Assembly: GCA_951813615.1 (NCBI GenBank)
Contig: OX638377.1
Coordinates: 1,426,001 to 1,490,000 of the forward strand
Reading direction: 5' to 3'
Origin: an uncultured Latescibacterota bacterium
Lineage (GTDB): Bacteria > Latescibacterota > UBA2968 > UBA8231
Length of the DNA: 64,000 nt
Shown: positions 7,371 to 62,270 of the stretch, piece after piece
Numbering within the stretch: position 1 is the stretch's first letter
Layout: each line of letters begins with the position of its first letter
The notes under the pieces: model-generated
Databases searched by the model: none
The model's input: only the letters and a program-made list of their open reading frames with translations
What the model was told of the DNA's origin: nothing
Made by a program: the position numbers and the translations under genes

Positions 7371-9617
7371 CTACTTGAGGTAGAGCAATCGCCGCGTCTG
7401 CGCTCCGTCGGGGTGGCGCAGGCGGGTGAGATAGACGCCGGCCGCCACCTCAGCGCCCCGCTGGTCGCGGGCGTCCCAGCGGACTTGGTAGAAACCGGCG
7501 GACTGGAACTGGTTTACCAGCGTGCGCACGGGTTGGCCCAAGACGTTGTAGATTTCCAGCCGCACCAAGCCGGGCGTGGCGAGGCGGTAGGCGATCTGGG
7601 TGCTGGCGTTGAAGGGGTTGGGGAAATTGGGGTCTAGCCCGCTGGTGGTCGGTATGGCCGGTGTGGTGCTGGGCGTTGAAACGAAAGTCGGGTGGGGGAT
7701 GTCTAAGGCGATGCCAGTGGAGGCCAAGCCTCTTTCTATTCCCACGGAGCGGATTTTCTCGACATTGGAGCCATCCAAGTTGGAACGGAAGATTTCTGAA
7801 TACATTGGTGAAGGACTAAACCAATCGTTGTTGAATCCGACACTCATGCCCGTCCAGTATATCTTTCCCCCAATGGGGTCCAGAGCGATAGCTTCGTTCC
7901 AACCATCCCAACGATAATCAAGAGTGACGATTTTTTTTATGTGTGAGCCATCCAAGTTAGAGCGGAAGACAGTATCGCGATGCGTCCAGTAGATTTTGGA
8001 TCTGTCTCTGTCCAAGGCGATACCCAAGGAACTGGTGCCGCCAAAGAAACGCACTACTGTTGTAATTTTTTTTATGTGTGAGCCATCCAAGTTAGAGCGG
8101 AAGACAGTATCGCGATGCGTCCAGTAGATTTTGGATCTGTCTCTGTCCAAGGCGATACCCAAGGAACTGGTGCCGCCAAAGAAACGCACTACTGTTGTAA
8201 TTTTTTTTATGTGTGAGCCATCCAAGTTGGAGCGGAAGACGGTATCGAGATTCGTCCAGTAGATTTTGGATCTGTCCCTGTCCAAGGCAATGGCATCTGG
8301 ACGATTCAACCCGGTGACGATGTCTTCGACCTGAGAGTTGTCCAAGTCTGCCGCCTGAATTTTCCCTGCTCCCGAGTCGGCCCAGTAGATTTTGTTCTCG
8401 GCTGTCAGGGCTATACCTTTCGGCTCATCCAACCCGGTTACAAGAACTTCCATGCCTGAGCCGTCTAGGTCGGCCCGCTGGATGGCCCCCTTCACTACGT
8501 CGGTCCAGTACATCTTATCTATGCCTAGGGCAATGCCGTGTGGTCCCCTCACTACTGGATCGAAGAGGATTTCGCGGTTTTGGCCGTCCAAGTCCGCTCG
8601 CTGGATCGTTCCCGAACCCCAACACACCCGGCAATTTTCCGGACTCGCGTCCGTCCAGTACACTTTGCCCCCGTCCACGTCGAGGACGATGTCTGCTAGG
8701 GTACCCGTGAGATGGAGTTTGCCTAAGTCGAAGAAGGGTTCGACGTTTTTACCGTACAGATCCGCTCGCTGGATCGTCTGCGTGCCCGGATTGGTCCAGT
8801 ATATCTGGTCTCGGTCCAAGTCGAGGAGGATGATTTCTTCGGGATAGCCATCTGAGATGGTGAGGACCTCTTCGACGTTTTGGCCGTCGAGGTCCGCTCG
8901 CTGGATCGTTCCCGCGCCCGTCCAGTACACTTTGCCCCTGTCCACGTCGAGGGCAATACTCATAGTAGAGCCTAGTCCGATATATTCATATCCGATATGT
9001 TCATATATATAGTCGGGGGAATATTCTTCGCGGTCGACCCACCTTTGGTCCTCAAGGTCCGCTCGCTGGATCGTTCCCGCGTTCGTCCAATACACTTTGC
9101 CTTTGACCAAATCCAGAGCAATGTCTTCTAGATCATGTCCTGCCCGAAGGAGGACTTCGATGTTGGAGCCGTCGAGGTTTGCCCGCGCAACGATACCTTC
9201 AATATAGTCACCGTGTGAGATCCCCTCCGTCCAGTACATTTTGCCTCCGGCTACATCGAGGGCAATGTCTGTTATCCAGTTCCATCCTGGGGGGCCATAT
9301 CCTTCTATGAGGGTTTCGACGTTTGAGCCGTCGAGGTCGGACCGATGGATGTCAGCCACCGCCCTTTCCGTCCAGTATATCTTCCCGCCAGCTATATCCA
9401 GAGTGATCTTGTTCGGACCTCGTAAATCTGGGATGACTAGCTGTTCGACATTTGAGCCATCTAAACTAGAGCGATGGATGCCGCTCTCTGGGTGAGTCCA
9501 GTAGATTTTGCCCTCCTCAACCGGCGGCTGGCCGTAGCCGCTCTGTGCTCCAAAGATTGACCATGCCGCTGTGAATATGGCGGCGATTGCTTTCCGGCTG
9601 GCAATTGAGCGTCTCAT
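7371..9617 (-). CDS. Secreted YWTD (LDL-receptor class B-like) beta-propeller protein with FlgD-like C-terminal module
   Basis: This 748-aa protein begins with a signal peptide (MRRSIASRKAIAAIFTAAWSIFGAQSGYG). Some fourteen repeats of about 40-45 residues follow, built on 'GKIYWTD...IQRADLDGSN', as in YWTD propellers, from about residue 35 to 640. The end (PNFPNPFNASTQIAYRL...IYNVLGQPVRTLV...GVYLTRLRH...RLLYLK) is the FlgD Ig-like/Por-type sorting module common in FCB-group secreted proteins. GAGGAGC precedes the ATG at 9617. It is probably exported or surface attached and involved in binding; no enzymatic residues are evident. Two internal repeats are near-identical at the DNA level (7931-8200). 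Confidence 0.85.
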   Translation of the reverse strand: MRRSIASRKAIAAIFTAAWSIFGAQSGYGQPPVEEGKIYWTHPESGIHRSSLDGSNVEQLVIPDLRGPNKITLDIAGGKIYWTERAVADIHRSDLDGSNVETLIEGYGPPGWNWITDIALDVAGGKMYWTEGISHGDYIEGIVARANLDGSNIEVLLRAGHDLEDIALDLVKGKVYWTNAGTIQRADLEDQRWVDREEYSPDYIYEHIGYEYIGLGSTMSIALDVDRGKVYWTGAGTIQRADLDGQNVEEVLTISDGYPEEIILLDLDRDQIYWTNPGTQTIQRADLYGKNVEPFFDLGKLHLTGTLADIVLDVDGGKVYWTDASPENCRVCWGSGTIQRADLDGQNREILFDPVVRGPHGIALGIDKMYWTDVVKGAIQRADLDGSGMEVLVTGLDEPKGIALTAENKIYWADSGAGKIQAADLDNSQVEDIVTGLNRPDAIALDRDRSKIYWTNLDTVFRSNLDGSHIKKITTVVRFFGGTSSLGIALDRDRSKIYWTHRDTVFRSNLDGSHIKKITTVVRFFGGTSSLGIALDRDRSKIYWTHRDTVFRSNLDGSHIKKIVTLDYRWDGWNEAIALDPIGGKIYWTGMSVGFNNDWFSPSPMYSEIFRSNLDGSNVEKIRSVGIERGLASTGIALDIPHPTFVSTPSTTPAIPTTSGLDPNFPNPFNASTQIAYRLATPGLVRLEIYNVLGQPVRTLVNQFQSAGFYQVRWDARDQRGAEVAAGVYLTRLRHPDGAQTRRLLYLK
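7931..8200 (-). repeat. Tandem 135-bp repeat inside the YWTD gene
   Basis: Copies 7931-8065 and 8066-8200 are essentially identical and encode the same 45 residues twice (DTVFRSNLDGSHIKKITTVV..., ...RSKIYWTHR). A third, diverged copy starts at 8201. The unit is in frame, so it adds a propeller blade rather than breaking the gene. Confidence 0.9.
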
Positions 9618-51060: not shown

Positions 51061-53025
51061 TTGCTCCGACGAATACCGGCTGTCTATCGCCAGCGCGTAG
51101 GGCACCACGACCAGACCACAGGCCGGGGTGCTACAGGGCGCGCCCTGCTCACCGGCGGCCTCTTGGCGGCCCTCATCGCCATCGGCGTGCCCTATGGGGG
51201 CATGGTGATGCAAGGGTCGCGGCTGGGGCTTTCGTCGGCGACGCCGGCGGCGTTTTTCTTGTTATTCGTGTTACTGCTGACCGTGCAGGTGGGCTTGGGG
51301 GCTGTGCGGCGGGAGTGGGCGTTTGGCCGCGGCGAGTTGCTGACGATCTTTGCGATGATGGCGGTGGCCACGGCCATTCCCACGCGTGGCGTGGTGGGGA
51401 TGCTGCTGCCGATGATCACCGGCACCTTCTACTACGCTACTCCAGAAAACCAGTGGGCCGAGTTGATCCATCCCCATTTGGCCGATTGGATGGTCGTCGC
51501 AGACATCGAGGCTATCCGGGACTTTTACGAGGGCGTGGGGCGCGATGCGCCGATCCCTTGGGACGCCTGGTTAGTGCCCTTGGGACATTGGCTGGCGTTC
51601 TACGCGGCGTTCTACTTGGCCTTGATATGCTTGATGAATATCCTGCGCCGCCAGTGGGTGGATAACGAGCGGCTGGCCTATCCCTTAGCGCAAGTGCCGC
51701 TGGCCATGGTCCAAGACGCGGAGGAAAGCCGGCTCGCGCCCTTTTTCCGCCAGCGCCTCGTCTGGCTGGGCTTGGCCGTTCCCTTTGTCCTCGGCAGTTT
51801 AGAGGCGCTGCATCATTATTTCCCCGCCATGCCCTCGCCCGTGCTGGAGACGCGGCTGTCGCTGCTGCGGCAGATCGTGGTCCTGCGCCTCGACATAAAC
51901 TTCCTGATGCTCGGTTTCGCCTACCTCATTGGCGTCCAGCTCTCCTTTAGCCTGTGGGTTTTCTATCTGCTCCACGCCCTGCAAGAGGGCTTGTTGCACA
52001 GTCTGCATTTGCAGCATACCGCCGAATTGGGGACGTGGTCCGATGCGGGGATGGGACATCAGATGATAGGGGCCTGCGCCGTTCTCGTCATTTATGGCTT
52101 GTGGACGGCTCGCGCTCATCTGGCCGAGGTCGGACGCCGCTTTTTGCGTCCGGGGAAAGACGAAGGAGAAATGGCGTCCTATCGCTTCTCCGTAGTTGGG
52201 TTGGTCTTGGGCACAGCGGGCATGGTGGTGTGGCTGTGGCAGAGTGGGCTGCCGATATGGATCGCCGCGTTGGTGGTAGTGGTGGCGCTGGGTCTTTTGG
52301 TGGCGCTGACACGCATCATCGCCGAAGCTGGTACTCCCACTATTACTTCGGGTATGATTCCCGCGGGATTTACCGTCGGTGCTGTCGGGGTGCCGGCCTT
52401 GGGTGCGCCGGGCATGGTGGCGCTGAGCTATACCTTGGTCTGGGTCGGCGATCTGCTGGTTTTTATGACCGCTCCTTTGGCCAATAGCCTGCGCTTGGGC
52501 AGCGAATTGGCGGGGGACCGCCGTCGGTTGCTGTGGGGTTTGGCCGCGGCCATGCTCATCAGCCTTGTGCTATCGACTTGGTACACGCTGCACTTGGCCT
52601 ATACGCACGGAGCCGTCAACCTCCACCGGCAGTATTTTTCCACCTTTGCGGCCGAGCCGTCCAAGTTCGCCGCGCAGCAACTACTCCATCCCACTGGCCC
52701 GGACGCCATTGGCTGGCTGTGGACCGGCGGCGGCGCTTTGCTGATGAGTGCGTTGATTGGTGCGCGCAACCACTGGGCTTGGTGGCCGCTGCATCCTTTG
52801 GGCTTTGCCGCGAGCATGGCTTGGGTTATGAACCATATCTGGTTCTCTATTTTTCTCGCTTGGTTCGTCAAGACCTTGGTTCTCCGCTTTGGGGGCGCAG
52901 CGCTCTACCACAAGACCGTGCCCTTCTTTCTCGGCATAGCCCTCGGTCAGATCGTCACTGCGGGGATCTGGCTCATCGTCGATGGGTTCACTGGGATGGT
53001 GGGCAATCGCCTGCCGGTGTATTAG
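51061..53025 (+). CDS. DUF6785/OPT-like polytopic membrane protein
   Basis: This protein of about 654 aa has some twelve or more hydrophobic helices (LLTGGLLAALIAIGVPYGGMVMQG, FFLLFVLLLTVQVGLGAV, FGRGELLTIFAMMAVATAIPTRGVVGMLLPMITG). The conserved tail is HPLGFAASMAWVMNHIWFSIFLAWFVKTLVLRFGGAALYHKTVPFFLGIALG. Family members are annotated as DUF6784/6785, distantly like OPT transporters. A paralog lies at 59078-60961. The start appears to be TTG at 51061 with AGGAAAGG upstream. It is 37 bases before mgdD on the same strand, so transport of an N-methylated substrate is an attractive but unproven role. Confidence 0.75.
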   Translation: MLRRIPAVYRQRVGHHDQTTGRGATGRALLTGGLLAALIAIGVPYGGMVMQGSRLGLSSATPAAFFLLFVLLLTVQVGLGAVRREWAFGRGELLTIFAMMAVATAIPTRGVVGMLLPMITGTFYYATPENQWAELIHPHLADWMVVADIEAIRDFYEGVGRDAPIPWDAWLVPLGHWLAFYAAFYLALICLMNILRRQWVDNERLAYPLAQVPLAMVQDAEESRLAPFFRQRLVWLGLAVPFVLGSLEALHHYFPAMPSPVLETRLSLLRQIVVLRLDINFLMLGFAYLIGVQLSFSLWVFYLLHALQEGLLHSLHLQHTAELGTWSDAGMGHQMIGACAVLVIYGLWTARAHLAEVGRRFLRPGKDEGEMASYRFSVVGLVLGTAGMVVWLWQSGLPIWIAALVVVVALGLLVALTRIIAEAGTPTITSGMIPAGFTVGAVGVPALGAPGMVALSYTLVWVGDLLVFMTAPLANSLRLGSELAGDRRRLLWGLAAAMLISLVLSTWYTLHLAYTHGAVNLHRQYFSTFAAEPSKFAAQQLLHPTGPDAIGWLWTGGGALLMSALIGARNHWAWWPLHPLGFAASMAWVMNHIWFSIFLAWFVKTLVLRFGGAALYHKTVPFFLGIALGQIVTAGIWLIVDGFTGMVGNRLPVY

Positions 53026-53062
53026 TTTCTGTTGACGGGAGAATGCAAAACATAATTTCGCT

Positions 53063-53635
53063 ATGACCACGACGCGCAAAAGCCCCATCGCCCATCTCGT
53101 CGCTGACGCATCCGCTCCGGTGCAAGCCGCTTTGCACCATCCGGTTGATATGGTCAAGCTCGGAGCCAAGGGTCCGCGCTTGGTCGAATGGGCTGAGCAG
53201 CACGCGCTCGCTCTGCCGACGCGGATATACGACACGCGGCCCGTAGGAACGGATGGGGTTTTGGCGCGGGTGGGCGCAGGAGAACTGATCTTGGAGTGTC
53301 GCCCCGAAGACGAGCTGTGGGCGCGTCTGAATGCGGCGTTGGAAGCTGCGGGGGACGGAGTCTATCGGGTGGAGCAGCAGTCGGTGACCTTGGTGGTGCA
53401 AGGGGATGATGCCAAAGGCATTTTGGCGCAGGCTTGCGCAGTGGATTTGGCCCGTGAGCCAGCAGAGCGGATGGTGTACACGCAGGTGGCCGGGGCGGCT
53501 TGCGGGGTGCTACCGCAGGGCGAGGATGGGCAGCGTGCGTATCGTCTGTGGGTTGATTACAGCTTGGCGGCCTATCTGTGGGAAGCGCTCGCCGCCATTG
53601 CCGAGGATATTACTTGCGCCAAAACGCCGGACTGA
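53063..53635 (+). CDS. mgdD: Sarcosine oxidase gamma / N-methylglutamate dehydrogenase subunit D-like
   Basis: This 190-aa protein matches SoxG: SPIAHLV near the N-terminus, VGAGELILECRPEDELWARLNAALE in the middle, VTLVVQGDDAKGILAQACAVDLA, and the closing YRLWVDYSLAAYLWEALAAIAED. It is the fourth subunit of the heterotetramer, separated from mgdABC by about 4.8 kb. No good ribosome site precedes the ATG, suggesting translation coupled to the membrane protein upstream. Its last 58 bases lie in the 78-bp repeat duplicated at 55791. Confidence 0.82.
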   Translation: MTTTRKSPIAHLVADASAPVQAALHHPVDMVKLGAKGPRLVEWAEQHALALPTRIYDTRPVGTDGVLARVGAGELILECRPEDELWARLNAALEAAGDGVYRVEQQSVTLVVQGDDAKGILAQACAVDLAREPAERMVYTQVAGAACGVLPQGEDGQRAYRLWVDYSLAAYLWEALAAIAEDITCAKTPD

Positions 53636-53655
53636 ACAGCACTAAGAGCGTAAAA
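53578..53655. repeat. 78-bp direct repeat, left copy
   Basis: Identical to 55791-55868 except one base (G 53587 versus A 55800). It covers the 3' end of mgdD and 20 bases beyond. The two copies bracket 2135 bases carrying the orphan gene. Confidence 0.95.
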
Positions 53656-54039
53656 GTCTGCGAAGTAGGGCTCATCCGGAAGTATCAGGTTGCCCCTGAA
53701 AGCGCCGAAATCCTTAAGCAGGGAATTCGTGTTACTTCTGGGACCTCTTCGCCCCCTCTGACAGCCGGCAAGAACGACAAAGGGCGGCGACGATGCCCGC
53801 AAGGGGTTGAAACCGACCGATTTCGATGCGATGACTGTCGTTGTTGGGGCCGAATGCGGAGCATCTGGGAAGGTCAACGAATGCAGTGGCTTAGGATGCC
53901 GCTCGCCGACCGACTGGTGGTAGGCTTGTATATCCGGCAAAGAGGTCATGTGCGCGGGGATTCGTGCCATGGAATTGCAATACGCTGTAAAAACAAGTAA
54001 CGGCGTACCGATCAACAATTGTTTCTTGTGAGGATCTAA
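53656..54039. other. Gap of 384 bases inside the inserted segment, no confident gene
   Basis: Several short frames are open here on both strands but none starts well or resembles a family. One plus-strand frame near 53790-53930 reads KGGDDARKGLKPTDFDAM... and ends RSPTDWW, and may be the tail of an eroded gene. The stretch precedes the orphan gene and presumably contains its promoter, which I could not place. Confidence 0.4.
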
Positions 54040-55779
54040 ATGTTGGACATCGTTGAAGCGTCTTCGAACCCAAAACCATTTGTCATGAGCGACGCACAAA
54101 TCGCATTGGATGGGGGTCAGCTATTGTTGTCTCAATATGTGGACATTGGTAAATCGCTAGACGAACGGCCGGATTATATCCTTGTGAAGGGTGTCGAAGC
54201 GGAGTTCAGTTTGGCACACAGCGCTACGATACTCATATCTAGTCCTCATAGATTTCAAGACGTAGGTGAGACGTTGATTCAAGACGAACAGGAGGGTCGG
54301 GCTCACAACCGCAAAGAGGAGTCTGAGAAAAATGAGTATGTAGAAGAACGTCAAGAACAAGAAGAGGCGCTCCACCAACTTGGTATGACGAAAGTGAAGC
54401 TGGGACCGCAAACTAGCCGGACCTCCCAAAATCAGGCGGAATCATATACGTTTGGTGGAGGATCGTGGATATTCTGTACCGCAATTCAACCGACGTCAGA
54501 TAATGAATGGCAAAGGTTACGAAAGGCGTTACCTCCGACTTACAACGACTATACTACGATACATCAACCAACTAAGTTTGCCCAGGCATTGGGCCTTATG
54601 TATATCGATCAGTTCGGCGCGAAGGGAACTGATGGCAAATTCACACATAATTCAACAGGTACGAGACCGCTGGTAACGATGCATGATTTTCTGCAAGTGC
54701 TTCATGGTCCTGTGCTGTACACAGACGATGTCTATGGTTTCTTGGAAGCTCGCCAGGATGCGACTCTGGCAATGGTATATCCATTGTTCGTTAAAGATAA
54801 GAAACATGCTGATCAGCGAGAGTATAGATTCGTGATTGTTGGGAAGGACGAAATAAATCATCGATACGAGCATTTGCGTGTCTCGGGAATGATGAAAGAT
54901 TCCTTTTCGCCGATAGGCAAAAAAAGCACAGTCCAGTTCAATACAGGGTTGGAAGAGCAGAAGGAGCCACAGGGTGAAGATCCCCCTGCAGTCACGCCGA
55001 AGAGTTATTCGCGAAAGAACAGCCAAACGTGGAGAAAAGAGGAGACAAGAACGAGAACCATAGCGGTCAATGGAGAGGAAAGAGAACGCGTGATTCAGAG
55101 GCGGGAAGTAATTGTCACGTTGATGTCGGAATCAAGAGTCGGCGGTGAGTTCATGTCTGGATTAGAAATTGAAGAGGAAAGACATGCAGGGAATTTTATT
55201 GAGCGAAGTAGCGAGGATGTCGAAGTGGATGGTGTTCCTATTGAAAGTTCGAAGAGTGAAACTGTCAGAATTGGTTATATCAAAAACATTGAAGATGCGG
55301 ACGACTTCTTTAGTATCGAGGATAAGAATGAAGCTAAGGAGGTATTTGAAAGCGCGAAGAATCTTGGGAGCCAAATTCTAGATAGCCCGGAATTGCGCAA
55401 GTCGATTTCTCGGTTATTTGAGGTCACTTTCGATCCAGTCCATCACAAATCAGTGGATGTCACGAGTGCGGCATGGCATGGGCTATGTGCATTAACCAAT
55501 TTGCATTCACTTTTTGGGGAGATTGTCGAAGAGGTCACTGTTGAGAACCAACGCTTTATTGCCATCAGTCTTAAACCATCTCAAGAATTTCAGGCTAACG
55601 GTAAGTTGCTGGTCGGCCCGATTGGTACTTGTGCTTATGTCTTACGTAAGGGGGATGAGGCGATTGATGGAGTCGGAGGCGAGGAGACGCAGATGATCCT
55701 ATTTCCGGATGAAGAGGCAGCGCAGAAGTTTTCTGAGTTTGGGTGGCCAATTAGGGAGCGAGATAGGGAGGATCGTTAG
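54040..55779 (+). CDS. 579-aa orphan protein in an inserted segment
   Basis: I do not recognise a family. The protein is soluble: no signal or membrane helix. Landmarks: charged, coiled-coil-prone residues ~92-118 (EEGRAHNRKEESEKNEYVEER type composition), SWIFCTAIQPTSDNEWQRLRKALPPTYNDYTTIHQPTKFAQALG near 145-190, and FVKDKKHADQREYRFVIVGKDE near 255, which resembles the 'K...QxEYRF' end of some phage- and defence-associated proteins. A Glu/Arg-rich middle and a compact C-terminus follow (VDVTSAAWHGLCALTNLHSLFGEIVEE). GAGGAT lies before the ATG. It is AT-richer than all neighbours and flanked by the 78-bp repeat, so recently acquired. Confidence 0.7.
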   Translation: MLDIVEASSNPKPFVMSDAQIALDGGQLLLSQYVDIGKSLDERPDYILVKGVEAEFSLAHSATILISSPHRFQDVGETLIQDEQEGRAHNRKEESEKNEYVEERQEQEEALHQLGMTKVKLGPQTSRTSQNQAESYTFGGGSWIFCTAIQPTSDNEWQRLRKALPPTYNDYTTIHQPTKFAQALGLMYIDQFGAKGTDGKFTHNSTGTRPLVTMHDFLQVLHGPVLYTDDVYGFLEARQDATLAMVYPLFVKDKKHADQREYRFVIVGKDEINHRYEHLRVSGMMKDSFSPIGKKSTVQFNTGLEEQKEPQGEDPPAVTPKSYSRKNSQTWRKEETRTRTIAVNGEERERVIQRREVIVTLMSESRVGGEFMSGLEIEEERHAGNFIERSSEDVEVDGVPIESSKSETVRIGYIKNIEDADDFFSIEDKNEAKEVFESAKNLGSQILDSPELRKSISRLFEVTFDPVHHKSVDVTSAAWHGLCALTNLHSLFGEIVEEVTVENQRFIAISLKPSQEFQANGKLLVGPIGTCAYVLRKGDEAIDGVGGEETQMILFPDEEAAQKFSEFGWPIRERDREDR

Positions 55780-55790
55780 TAAAGTTGAAC

Positions 55791-55868
55791 GTGGGAAGCA
55801 CTCGCCGCCATTGCCGAGGATATTACTTGCGCCAAAACGCCGGACTGAACAGCACTAAGAGCGTAAAA
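55791..55868. repeat. 78-bp direct repeat, right copy
   Basis: Second copy of 53578-53655. It contains the last 46 bases of trkH (stop at 55823) and, in the other direction, a duplicated tail of mgdD without its gene body. Confidence 0.95.
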
Positions 55869-57271
55869 ACTTCCAGTCTCCCAATCAGCATAGCAAAGCA
55901 CAGGATCCACTTGGCGACCGCATTGATGTCGCCGTAGTGGTGGACGACTTCCCCTAGGCCCGGTCCCAAGTTGTTGATGCAGGCGGCTACCGCTGAAAAA
56001 GACGTAGTCAGATCCAAGTCGGTGGCGAGCACGGCGAGGAACATGAGCGTGAACGTCAGCACGTACACCGAGAAAAATCCCCACACCGCTTCCATGACTC
56101 GATCGGGAACAGCCCGCCGTCCCACCTTGATGGGAAGGACGGCGTTGGGGTGGATCAGGCGCGTGATCTCTCGGCTGCCCTGCTTTAGAATGAGCAACAA
56201 ACGCATCACTTTGATGCCCCCTGCCGTCGAGCCAGCACAGCCGCCGACAAACGAGCCAAGGAACAACAAAAACGGCAGCACGCTGGGCCAGACCGAATGG
56301 TCGGCAATGCTGAACCCGGTGGTGGTGACAATGGACACGGTGGCGAAGAGGCCGTAGCGCAGGGATGCGAGAGCGTCGTGCTCGTTGTGCGTAAAGAGGA
56401 TCAGCCAGGCGATTAGGGCGGTGATCAGTAAAATAACTAGATACGTGCGGCCCTCGGGGTCGATGCGATACGGATGCAGCGACCGCTGGCGAAAGGCGTA
56501 AAAGTGCAACGTGAAGTTTATGCCCGATAATACGATAAAAAAGACGGCGACCAACTCGATGGCTTGGCTGTTAAAAAAGCCGATACTGGCGTCGTGGGTT
56601 GAAAAGCCGCCGATGGCAACCGTTGAAAAGCTGTGGGCGATGGCGTCAAAAGGCTCCATGCCGGCCAGCCAATAGGCCAAGGCACAGGCCACGGTCAAAC
56701 TCAAGTAGATAAACCAAAGGGCCTTGGCGGTGTGGGTGATCCTCGGCGTCAGCTTTGAATCCTTAATAGGACCGGTGATCTCAGCGCGAAAAAGCTGCAT
56801 CCCGCCGATGCCGAGCATGGGTAATACGGCGATGGCGAGGACGATGATGCCCATGCCGCCGAACCACTGGAGTTGCTGGCGGTATAATAAGATGGAGCGG
56901 GGCAGGTCGTCTAGGCCTTGGATGACGGTGGCACCGGTTGTGGTCAAGCCGGAGAGGGACTCAAATACGGCGTCGGTAACACTCAGTTTAGGCTGATCGG
57001 ACAACATCAACGGGAAGGAGCCGTACAAGCCTAGGACGGCCCAGAACAAGACCGTCACCAAAAAGCCGTCCCTGATCCGCAACTCAGCGCGCTGCTTGCG
57101 CGTGGGCAACCAGCAGGCAAGCCCGGTGCCGAGCGTAATGGCAAAGGCTAACAGAAAGGCGGTTGCCGCTCCGTCGCGGTAGAAGAGGGATACGCCAGCG
57201 GGTACTAACATGGTGACGCTAAACAGCGTCAGCAGGACGCCCAGCACCCGAAATGTCCCCGCGGGGCGCAT
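55823..57271 (-). CDS. trkH: Trk-type potassium uptake protein, membrane subunit
   Basis: This 482-aa polytopic protein has the four pore-loop pattern of TrkH/KtrB (FESLSGLTTTGATVIQGL; HSFSTVAIGGFSTHDASIGFF; YGLFATVSIVTTTGFSIADHSVWP; FSAVAACINNLGPGLGEV). LFLGSFVGGCAGSTAGGIKVMRLLLI is also characteristic. It conducts K+ across the inner membrane under control of TrkA, whose gene lies seven bases upstream. GGAG is close to the ATG. In the pre-insertion state its 3' end would have overlapped mgdD by 26 bases. Confidence 0.93.
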   Translation of the reverse strand: MRPAGTFRVLGVLLTLFSVTMLVPAGVSLFYRDGAATAFLLAFAITLGTGLACWLPTRKQRAELRIRDGFLVTVLFWAVLGLYGSFPLMLSDQPKLSVTDAVFESLSGLTTTGATVIQGLDDLPRSILLYRQQLQWFGGMGIIVLAIAVLPMLGIGGMQLFRAEITGPIKDSKLTPRITHTAKALWFIYLSLTVACALAYWLAGMEPFDAIAHSFSTVAIGGFSTHDASIGFFNSQAIELVAVFFIVLSGINFTLHFYAFRQRSLHPYRIDPEGRTYLVILLITALIAWLILFTHNEHDALASLRYGLFATVSIVTTTGFSIADHSVWPSVLPFLLFLGSFVGGCAGSTAGGIKVMRLLLILKQGSREITRLIHPNAVLPIKVGRRAVPDRVMEAVWGFFSVYVLTFTLMFLAVLATDLDLTTSFSAVAACINNLGPGLGEVVHHYGDINAVAKWILCFAMLIGRLEVFTLLVLFSPAFWRK

Positions 57272-59077: not shown

Positions 59078-60961
59078 TCAGAAGTTGAAGATCATGTTGC
59101 CCTCGACGCCGTAGGCCCCGTCGATGAAGAGCCATAGGCAGGCCGTGGTGAACTCGCCGAGGATCAGCCCCAAAAAGAACGGCATCAAGGCGCGGTAGGC
59201 GCGCACCCCGCCGTAGCGCAGGATCGTCGCCTTGAGTAGCCAAGCCAAAAAGATGGACAACCAGCCATAGTAAACAATGGTGAAGGTGGAGGCGATGGGG
59301 AATCCCAAGGGATGCAGGGGCCACCACGCGAAGCGGTGGCGCAAAAAGAGCAGGGCGGCCATGACAAAGCTCCCGCTGGCGGTGAAGGCAAGGCGCGGGG
59401 CAAACGACGGCTCGGGCGCGTTGTACACCGAGGCCATATAGGTAAAGGGCCAGCGCGGTGCGCCGCTAAAGTACCAGCCGTGCAGGTTGATGCCGCCGTA
59501 GGTATAGGCGAGCGTCATGGTAAACCAGATCGAGCCGAGCAGCCCCACGGCGATGGCAGCGAACAAAGCCCAAGGCAGCCAGCGCGGCGCGGGCGAGTCG
59601 CCGGAGGTGAGCTTGAGGCTGTGCATGACGGCATTCATCATGTTGGCCGCGGTCTCGCCCATCCACACCGTGCTCAGACCCAAGCCGGTCATGTTGCCAA
59701 GGCCGAGGGTCTCGGGGCCGATGCCTCGGGTGATGAAGGCTTGGGGGGCCATCGGCGTCTGGCAGCCGGGGATCCCGGCCTCGCAGACGATGCGCGACAG
59801 ACCGATAAAGACGATGAGTGCCCCTACCACTAGTAGCACCGCCGCGTACAGGGAGAGCCCGGTGAGCGTCAGCCAAGCCACCATGAACGTCATGCCGACG
59901 GCTAGGCCGCCAAAGGCCGTGCGCGGGGCCATGAGTTCGCCGGGGGCTGGTTCGCCTTTTAACGCTTGGCTCCACAGGCGGCGCAGATGCGTGCGGGCGG
60001 TCCACATCACGAAGAGGGACAGCACCAAGAGGCCACCGGCCTGTTGGTGAGAGACGGGGACTGAGCCGCCACCCGAGGTCCAAATATCGCCCCCGCCAAT
60101 GACGAGGCCGATGCGGGCGAAGACGACTTTTTCTAGGGTGTAAAACAAAAAGAAAAACCAGATGCTGAAGGAGACGCTGAGCGCCATCAGGTAGGCTAGG
60201 CCCAAGATCGGCAGGTTGATTCGCCAGGGCAGGCCGACGCTGCCTTGCAGCAGGGATAGGCTACCGCTCAGGGCGATAGGTTGGAAGGCGTCGTGGTAGT
60301 AGTTGAGCGAGTTCCAAGAGTGAATGAGGAGCGGCACGGCAAAGCCCAGCCACAGCAGGCGATTTTTAAACAGGCCGCCGAAGAGGGGCGCGGAGTCCGC
60401 GTCTTCGAGCATGGCCAAGGGCAGGCGAGTGAGGGGAAAGACGAGCCGCTCGTTGGCTACCCACTGGCCTCTGAGCAACACGCCGAGGCAAAAGAGGACC
60501 CAGTAGAAGACGAAGATAAAGCACGTCCAGGCGAATAGCGGACGGCTCCAAGCGGCCCACGGTATGGCGCTGCCTTGGGGTAGGCCTTCGTAGAACAGGC
60601 GCACGGCCTCGGTGTTGGTGGGGGCCAGCCAGGGGTGGATATACTCGACGAAAAGCTCCTGCCAGGCATTTTCCGGCGTGGCGTAGTACGCGGCTCCGGT
60701 GATGACCGATAAAAAGCTGCCGGTGAAGCCAGTGGTGACCACGACCGCGCCGACCAGCATCATGGCGTACACAGCGATGAGTTCGGCGCGAGAAAAAGCC
60801 CACGCACGGCCCAGCATCTTGAGCAGGGGCAGGGCCACGGCGGTCAATAGAAAGAGGAAGAGGACGGCGATTAGAGGGATGGCATTGCTGGTGATCTGCG
60901 ATCCCTTGACTATGAGGATACCCCAAGGACTTAGTACGCTGATCGCCCCGACGAGGAGCAA
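59078..60961 (-). CDS. DUF6785/OPT-like polytopic membrane protein (paralog of 51061)
   Basis: This protein has about 627 residues from the TTG at 60961. Many helices match the protein at 51061-53025: ILIVKGSQITSNAIPLIAVLFLFLLTAV, FSRAELIAVYAMMLVGAVVVTTGFTGSFLSVITGAAYYATPENAWQELF, and the tail HPLGFPIASTFTIVYYGWLSIFLAWLLKATILRYGGVRAYRALMPFFLGLILGEF. The frame stays open upstream to 61228 but overlaps the methyltransferase gene. The homolog suggests 15-25 extra residues before RAVLTG, with CTG (L, six codons earlier) the only nearby alternative, so the true start is unsettled. Substrate unknown. Confidence 0.75.
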   Translation of the reverse strand: MLLVGAISVLSPWGILIVKGSQITSNAIPLIAVLFLFLLTAVALPLLKMLGRAWAFSRAELIAVYAMMLVGAVVVTTGFTGSFLSVITGAAYYATPENAWQELFVEYIHPWLAPTNTEAVRLFYEGLPQGSAIPWAAWSRPLFAWTCFIFVFYWVLFCLGVLLRGQWVANERLVFPLTRLPLAMLEDADSAPLFGGLFKNRLLWLGFAVPLLIHSWNSLNYYHDAFQPIALSGSLSLLQGSVGLPWRINLPILGLAYLMALSVSFSIWFFFLFYTLEKVVFARIGLVIGGGDIWTSGGGSVPVSHQQAGGLLVLSLFVMWTARTHLRRLWSQALKGEPAPGELMAPRTAFGGLAVGMTFMVAWLTLTGLSLYAAVLLVVGALIVFIGLSRIVCEAGIPGCQTPMAPQAFITRGIGPETLGLGNMTGLGLSTVWMGETAANMMNAVMHSLKLTSGDSPAPRWLPWALFAAIAVGLLGSIWFTMTLAYTYGGINLHGWYFSGAPRWPFTYMASVYNAPEPSFAPRLAFTASGSFVMAALLFLRHRFAWWPLHPLGFPIASTFTIVYYGWLSIFLAWLLKATILRYGGVRAYRALMPFFLGLILGEFTTACLWLFIDGAYGVEGNMIFNF

Positions 60962-61025
60962 ACCCGTGAGGACGGCGCGCAGAGAGAAAGCGGACGGAGG
61001 GGTGGTGCGGGACGTGGGAAACCGC

Positions 61026-62270
61026 CTATTTGAGACTGCGGATGAAGTAGAGCAGGCGCTTGAAAAAGCTCGGCCGGATGCCGGGGTTCTCGGTGCGTTG
61101 GGCCACCACGTGGTAGGCTTGGAGATGGTGGTTGTACATGGCGTGGGCTCCGCCCCACAAGTACAGGCGGAAGGCACGAAAAACCGCTTCGCCCCAGCGC
61201 TCGACGATGGTCTGGCGGTTAGCCTCAAAGCGAGTGGCCCAGTGGTCCAGCGTCAGGGCGTACTCGTGCGTTTCATCTACTACTTCCTCCACCTTGAAGC
61301 CGTGCATGAGGAACTCTTGCAGCAGGTCGGGTAGGCACAGGTACGTGTGGGTGCCGGGGTAGATATAGCGACGCACGAAGTTGCTCACCTTGTACTTTTC
61401 GAGCGTGGCCGAAGCGTCCAAATAAATGCGGCCCCCGGGCTTGAGGCATTTCCACACTTGCGCGGCAAAGTCACGGTAGTGGGGGATGTGCTCAATGACG
61501 CCGAAAATGACGATGGCGTCGTACGGCTCGGGTGGCTCGTGCTCGAGGAAATCTTCAAGGAGGATTTGGCAGTTCGTCAGCCCTTGTTCGGCGATGAGTT
61601 CTTGGTGCAGTCGATGCGAGTCCTCAGCAATGGTCAGGGCCGTGCAGTGGATGCCGCGCGGACCAGCGTAGCGAGTAACTGCGCCCCAGCCTGCGCCGAT
61701 GTCGAGTAGGCGGTCTCCTGCTTGCAGGCGCAGGGCTTGGGCCATGGTGGCAAATTTGTGCTCAGCGGCCTGTTCCAGCGTTTCGTCATCGTCGTGGAAG
61801 AGGCACTGCGAGTAGAGATGGTACTGGCGATCGACGATCGCCAAGTAGAAATCGTCGCCGAAGTTATAGTGGTGCGCGATGGCAGCGCGGTTGAGGCGGA
61901 TGCGGTTGCTCCAGAGAAGTTGCAGATAGGCCCGCAGCAGGAAACCGGGGCTGATCTTGCCCTTGGCGTACTGGCGCATATCTAGGAAGGAGTGTACATC
62001 ACCCTCGATTTCGATCTGGCCCTCGACGTAAGCGCGACCGATGGCGTACTCGTCGAGTCTTTTGCTGAGTATCTCGTCGGAGTGGAAGACGACGCTAAAG
62101 TCTGGTTCGCCCGCCGGTCCCAAGCGCAAGGTCTCGCCTTGTGCAAAGGTAAACTGGCAGGGGATGGGGATGTCGGCGAGGGCGGCGTAGACTAGGCGGG
62201 CAGCCGCGCATTGGGGCTTGGGGGGCGGGGCTTGCTCTCGCTCTTGCTGTAATTGGGGCTGTGCGGTCAT
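61026..62270 (-). CDS. Cyclopropane-fatty-acyl-phospholipid synthase-like SAM methyltransferase
   Basis: This 414-aa protein has the CFA synthase layout: an N-terminal substrate domain (VVFHSDEILSKRLDEYAIGRAYVEGQIEIEGDVHSFLDM), then IAHHYNFGDDFYLAIVDRQYHLYSQCLF, typical of the family. The SAM site is LLDIGAGWGAVTRYAG and is followed by a VIEHIPHYRDF-type loop. It adds a methylene or methyl group to unsaturated membrane lipids. The start at 62270 has AGGA upstream; a start seven codons earlier is less supported. It ends just upstream of the DUF6785-like gene on the same strand. Confidence 0.88.
   Translation of the reverse strand: MTAQPQLQQEREQAPPPKPQCAAARLVYAALADIPIPCQFTFAQGETLRLGPAGEPDFSVVFHSDEILSKRLDEYAIGRAYVEGQIEIEGDVHSFLDMRQYAKGKISPGFLLRAYLQLLWSNRIRLNRAAIAHHYNFGDDFYLAIVDRQYHLYSQCLFHDDDETLEQAAEHKFATMAQALRLQAGDRLLDIGAGWGAVTRYAGPRGIHCTALTIAEDSHRLHQELIAEQGLTNCQILLEDFLEHEPPEPYDAIVIFGVIEHIPHYRDFAAQVWKCLKPGGRIYLDASATLEKYKVSNFVRRYIYPGTHTYLCLPDLLQEFLMHGFKVEEVVDETHEYALTLDHWATRFEANRQTIVERWGEAVFRAFRLYLWGGAHAMYNHHLQAYHVVAQRTENPGIRPSFFKRLLYFIRSLK

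Follow-up and report, generated by a model that had tools for sequence, protein, structure and literature searches.

How could a foreign gene come to lie in the overlap of two convergent genes and leave both of them whole? The question is raised by a locus in an uncultured Latescibacterota bacterium, a presumed relative of bacteria that live in sponges, within a 64,000-nucleotide stretch of DNA that we call the window (contig OX638377.1, positions 1,426,001 to 1,490,000, assembly GCA_951813615.1). Coordinates are those of the window, and positions in the whole genome are marked by its contig G000:C1 or named as genome positions. A direct-repeat search placed two 78-bp copies at 53578..53655 (with the empty-site alignment) and 55791..55868 (with the congener alignment), and between them lies an AT-rich insert of 2,135 bp (53656..55790; these three features are unstranded). 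The copies were identical at 77 of the 78 positions with a start-to-start spacing of 2213, and the sole mismatch falls at repeat position 10, which is G at 53587 and A at 55800. These two copies are the only ones in the whole 6.27-Mb genome. Since the longest chance direct repeat 600-9000 bp apart was 19 bp in three order-5 Markov copies of 464 kb, the 78-bp repeat is not a product of chance.

The left neighbour of the insert is an intact mgdD-like gene of 190 aa (53063..53635, plus strand) with a weak GCV_T/SoxG-like match and its stop at 53635. The right neighbour is an intact trkH of 482 aa (55823..57271, minus strand; PF02386, E 2e-98), and its end at 55823 is equivalent to 53610 in the left copy. 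Without the insert, the two genes thus overlap by 26 bp, which correspond to 53610-53635 of the left copy. This copy supplies the end of mgdD by its part 53578-53635 and keeps a non-functional remnant of the trkH end at 53636-53655, while the right copy completes trkH by its part 55823-55868 and keeps a non-functional remnant of mgdD, which carries the single substitution (55800), at 55791-55822. Both genes are whole because 78 bp of the landing site were duplicated. The sequence-only reading had described a repeat that differs at one base, consists of the 3' ends of both genes, which share 26 bases in the empty site, and left mgdD and trkH intact; its coordinates and the identity of the copies were borne out, the ORF ends confirmed the overlap, and both genes proved complete. 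Two DUF6785/DUF6784 membrane proteins in opposite orientation (51061-53025 and 59078-61228) flank the mgdD-trkH-trkA region. Elsewhere in the window (7930-8950), short direct repeats cluster 267-300 bp apart within a coding region and are probably repeated protein domains.

The same junction was compared in the congeners, with one genome per species. Six congeneric species (G001, G002, G003, G006, G007, and G010) carry a single copy of the 78 bp, and mgdD runs seamlessly into trkH. G004, G005, and G008 are more diverged, yet mgdD adjoins trkH there as well; G009 was left out of the empty-site comparison, as its contig ends inside trkH. No other insert was found at the mgdD/trkH junction in the congeners examined. 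An empty site in relatives had been anticipated from the sequence, and an arrangement shared by all relatives, which would have spoken against a recent insertion, was not seen. The insertion took place on the studied lineage and hit the stretch shared by the two convergent genes.

The two copies also bear on the source of the duplicated DNA. Both share a private T at repeat position 66 (53643 and 55856), where all six congeners have C. Furthermore, they differ from each other at one site and from five congeners at 2-5 sites (G003 was left out of these counts because of a deletion within the repeat region). The A of the right copy at position 10 (55800) is also present in G006. This substitution sits in the non-coding remnant of the right copy (55791-55822), which fits the neutral change expected after the event. 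An imported att site is disfavoured, as the copies have the one private base in common and each resembles the other more than it resembles any congener. The second copy most likely derives from DNA of the lineage itself, as judged from one private site and low divergence; that self-origin draws on these two observations is a point that counts against the explanation proposed below.

The insert itself was searched for functions that could have moved it. No recombinase domain was found in the cargo or in the other insert ORFs of at least 60 aa, in agreement with the earlier remark that the insert lacks an integrase. There was no inverted repeat joining the insert ends, no tRNA in the window, and no Rfam RNA in 53000-56500. 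The insert DNA, which differs in GC content from its flanks (0.478 vs 0.601), has no counterpart in the congeners or elsewhere in the genome; a search of the own genome and 60 relatives gave nothing past chance matches of 20-30 bp, and no donor was found there. A DDE or HUH transposon was rejected in view of the 78-bp duplication and the lack of inverted ends and of a transposase. Ku was not found in the genome, and Ku-dependent end joining is therefore unlikely and was set aside. A ComEC family protein is encoded in the genome, and its presence would permit the uptake of DNA.

The insert consists of a 384-bp non-coding leader (53656..54039, plus strand), which has no Rfam family and only short ORFs lacking a Pfam match, followed by the cargo gene (54040..55779, plus strand) encoding a 579-aa protein of an orphan family with no assigned function. 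Nothing above the cut-off was obtained for this protein in Pfam, NCBIfam, PADLOC, or PHROGs, so membership of a known family was rejected. The family had no match in the viral, phage, or plasmid collections, and the cargo contains no restriction or methyltransferase domain. Its relatives are sporadic (27-35% identity), occurring in G009 of the same genus, in G028 and G030 of another family of the class, and in MAGs labelled Gemmatimonadetes, Latescibacteria, Silicimonas, Chloroflexota, and Poribacteria, which we take to be from sponges. The conserved residues form the motifs HGPVxY and FxK...QREYRF; a supposed resemblance of the motif to DUF2971 was dropped, as Pfam gave no confirmation. The structure model of the full-length protein reached a pLDDT of 49 and that of the N-terminal part a pTM of 0.73, and the N-terminal model had no match below E 0.7 among the PDB and viral structures.

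The neighbours of the relatives hint at a role. The Poribacteria relative lies between methyltransferase-like and helicase-like genes resembling a type III restriction-modification pair, and the Chloroflexota relative adjoins a DNA methyltransferase-like gene (names given by reading the sequences). The relatives also match the phage-defence candidate PDC-S31 weakly (E 0.003-0.02), which points the same way as these neighbours. As identities of the cargo, PDC-S31 and phrog_13198 were both rejected, since the matches are weak and belong to the relatives and not to the window protein. A defence-related role, guessed from the neighbouring genes, is conceivable. Repeats near two of the relatives were discarded as support: those near the G030 gene are ImmA/PIN gene ends that were duplicated long ago and have since degraded, and those near the G037 gene are the shared 5' end of paralogous genes. 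A separate stretch of ~55 bp (L047:6676-6730) has several dispersed copies in G030, G026, G028, G029, and further members of their genus, and is possibly a small interspersed repeat.

Is the locus the only one of its kind in this genome? Isolated direct repeats were listed from 2.06 Mb of the 6.27 Mb, i.e., a third of the genome, and the repeat density refers to this genome alone. In case 2, a 125-bp repeat (96%) at genome positions 1618936 and 1620881 corresponds to the 3' end of a 458-aa gene. It brackets an AT-rich SIR2-TPR gene (GC 0.448; SIR2_2, E 2e-15; PADLOC SIR2 families), whose last codons fall inside a repeat copy, and the site is empty with one copy in G007. This junction (G000:C1 1618936-1622257) is variable and holds other genes in G010, G003, G009, G006, and G001, among them a DUF262/GmrSD-like gene in G010 (PADLOC) and, by reading, a sulfatase-like gene in G009 and a CoiA-like gene in G003. 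In case 7, a 527-aa gene has its 3' end duplicated as a repeat of ~120-140 bp (~90%) at 4064724 and 4073665. Between this gene and the remnant copy of its end lies a type I restriction-modification locus with HsdM, HsdS, and HsdR (G000:C1 4063217-4075099). The site is contiguous and empty in G006 and G002, while the insert is present in G007 and, by contig ends, in G001 and G003, and is shortened in G010. Together with the mgdD/trkH locus, the genome holds three supported cases.

Three more repeats at gene 3' ends look like these cases by their anatomy alone and are kept as candidates. They are a 75-bp repeat around an FAD/BNR protein (candidate 3, 2165521-2167906), a 155-bp repeat around an AAA-ATPase with a PD-(D/E)XK nuclease (candidate 4, 3200894-3202903), and an 83-bp repeat around a split AAA_14/DUF4143 ATPase (candidate 6, 3017944-3019494). 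Candidate 5 (yhbY, 4195030/4196049) was rejected as a probable duplication of a yhbY paralogue. The repeat ends exactly on the stop codon in case 2 and candidates 3 and 4, and passes it by 20-25 bp at the mgdD/trkH locus and in case 7. The repeat sequences are unrelated from locus to locus. Two further arrangements were seen on the same contig. Within the type I locus (G000:C1 4067287-4068133), the complete hsdS is immediately preceded by a fusion between a Y1 (RAYT-like) transposase ORF and a copy of the hsdS 5' end, and a 45-bp repeat links this copy with the complete gene. At G000:C1 1654151-1656025, a 61-bp repeat (93%) resembling an hsdR-type 5' end brackets a HipA-like kinase gene and its partner.

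We propose that the mgdD/trkH junction captured a foreign fragment with a single gene, so that the 78 bp of the host itself came to stand on both sides, and we put the probability of this whole explanation at roughly 0.7. That the event belongs, as a class, to the insertions with long target duplication is likely. The joining would not have been performed by a site-specific enzyme. Two routes could give the observed product: a break with staggered ends of ~78 nt might have been filled in around the fragment, or replication might have switched onto the foreign fragment and then back to a point 78 bp upstream. Illegitimate capture of this kind, at a break or a stalled fork, is the likeliest, still tentative answer to the question of the joining route, somewhat short of an even chance. 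Such inserts would be kept only at places where the duplication restores the sequence that they interrupt, and for this reason gene ends would appear as insertion places. Their use may therefore reflect survivorship, i.e., selection against insertions elsewhere. The direct repeats would in principle also allow precise loss of the insert by homologous recombination.

Several other origins were weighed against this capture. A mis-join of the assembly, which would have produced repeat and insert together, finds some room in the stated contamination of the genome of 7%, but values of 2-9% are usual in the genus, the genome is a single 6.27-Mb contig, the repeat copies are set apart by one base, synteny with the congeners holds on both flanks, and similar structures stand at other loci where congeners have empty sites; mis-assembly is thus very improbable. 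An integrase-less cassette, which a tyrosine recombinase acting in trans would have placed at the 3' end of a gene, would turn the 78 bp into attL and attR of an element that carries its own gene ends. Tyrosine-recombinase elements such as genomic islands and satellites do duplicate and restore a gene end at the insertion point, and the location at gene 3' ends, the restoration of both genes, the fact that this genome holds several inserts next to gene ends, and the stop-codon boundaries at loci 2-4 would all suit them. Here, however, the insert has no integrase or other recombinase, the repeat appears to be host-derived, with the species-private base in both copies, and the junction holds no further insert in the congeners examined. 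Moreover, a single integrase in trans is unlikely because the inserts use unrelated sequences at different gene ends of the same genome. The sequence-only reading had likened the locus to a site-specific element and had considered capture by an element acting in trans; the shared private base, the lack of other inserts, and the unrelated sites count against the former, and the unrelated target sequences elsewhere against the latter, and we hold site-specific integration to be quite unlikely.

A RecA-dependent single crossover, which the sequence-only reading had also named as a possible origin in the form of a circle carrying the junction, would start from a circle that already contained the 78-bp junction and the gene, e.g., one popped from another chromosome of the species. 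Its product would have identical geometry, it agrees with copies that are nearly identical and both of the studied lineage, and a circle model of the same sort has been put forward for relocated genes of plants that are bracketed by repeats (PMC2869330). Those Arabidopsis genes are similar in being single genes between direct repeats that often match the orthologous target site, and differ in being eukaryotic and in having, in some cases, a parental copy in the same genome (PMC2869330); none was found here. The circle must already hold the species' own junction, and the first molecule with junction and cargo must still arise by an insertion with duplication; the model may explain spread within the species but not the origin, and we give it little credence for this locus. 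Homology-facilitated illegitimate recombination during DNA uptake would have recombined the donor fragment by homology at the mgdD end and joined its other end illegitimately to recipient DNA 78 bp further back. The process is known to be homologous at one end and illegitimate at the other (PMC3240628), and it likewise adds foreign DNA without a dedicated recombinase. Stop-codon boundaries at loci 2-4 would fit homology that ends with the gene, the last codons of the case 2 cargo lie inside a repeat copy, and a ComEC family protein is encoded, although ComEC is widespread and little informative. At the mgdD/trkH locus, however, the homologous anchor that is required at one end is not apparent at either insert end, and neither repeat end lies on a natural limit of homology, since the repeat overruns the mgdD stop by 20 bp into the trkH coding sequence. 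This route is therefore unlikely here. The stop-codon ends at loci 2, 3, and 4 are not favoured by a blind cut, and a homology-anchored variant may have acted there.

Insertion with long target duplication was reportedly named by Nobusato et al. (Gene, 2000) for restriction-modification genes, and Furuta et al. (NAR, 2010) are said to have described it. As far as the available text of these sources goes, such insertions, first found in Helicobacter pylori, carry restriction-modification genes between repeats of the order of 100 bp (PMC1643837, PMC3031569, PMC3874152), and the enzymology of joining is not stated in those parts of the three papers. PMC3874152 describes target duplications of the order of 100 bp, and the papers call inserts of this type "frequently associated" with restriction-modification genes. 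The mgdD/trkH locus agrees with these insertions in its empty orthologous site, in a direct repeat of the order of 100 bp (here 78 bp) that is single there, and in the lack of a mobility gene. It differs from them in its orphan non-restriction cargo, in its host, an uncultured relative of Latescibacteria, and in the target, an overlap of convergent genes. Restriction-modification cargo is absent from the mgdD/trkH locus, but the insert of case 7 carries a type I system. On these results, the pattern seems to extend beyond restriction genes and beyond Helicobacter.

What is new here is the non-restriction cargo, the uncultured phylum, and the repetition within one genome, which apparently acquired defence genes in this manner at other loci as well. 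A wider reading is that the genus possesses a route, independent of recombinases or relying on an enzyme in trans, that repeatedly places defence-like genes, singly or as entire loci, and not only restriction-modification systems, at gene 3' ends, each time with 75-155 bp duplicated; we consider it rather doubtful. The spread of defence genes without a mobility enzyme is poorly understood, and a genome with three supported cases and further candidates offers material for seeking donors and the rules of the junctions. If this wider reading is true, gene ends would be general landing places for immune genes, beyond restriction-modification systems.
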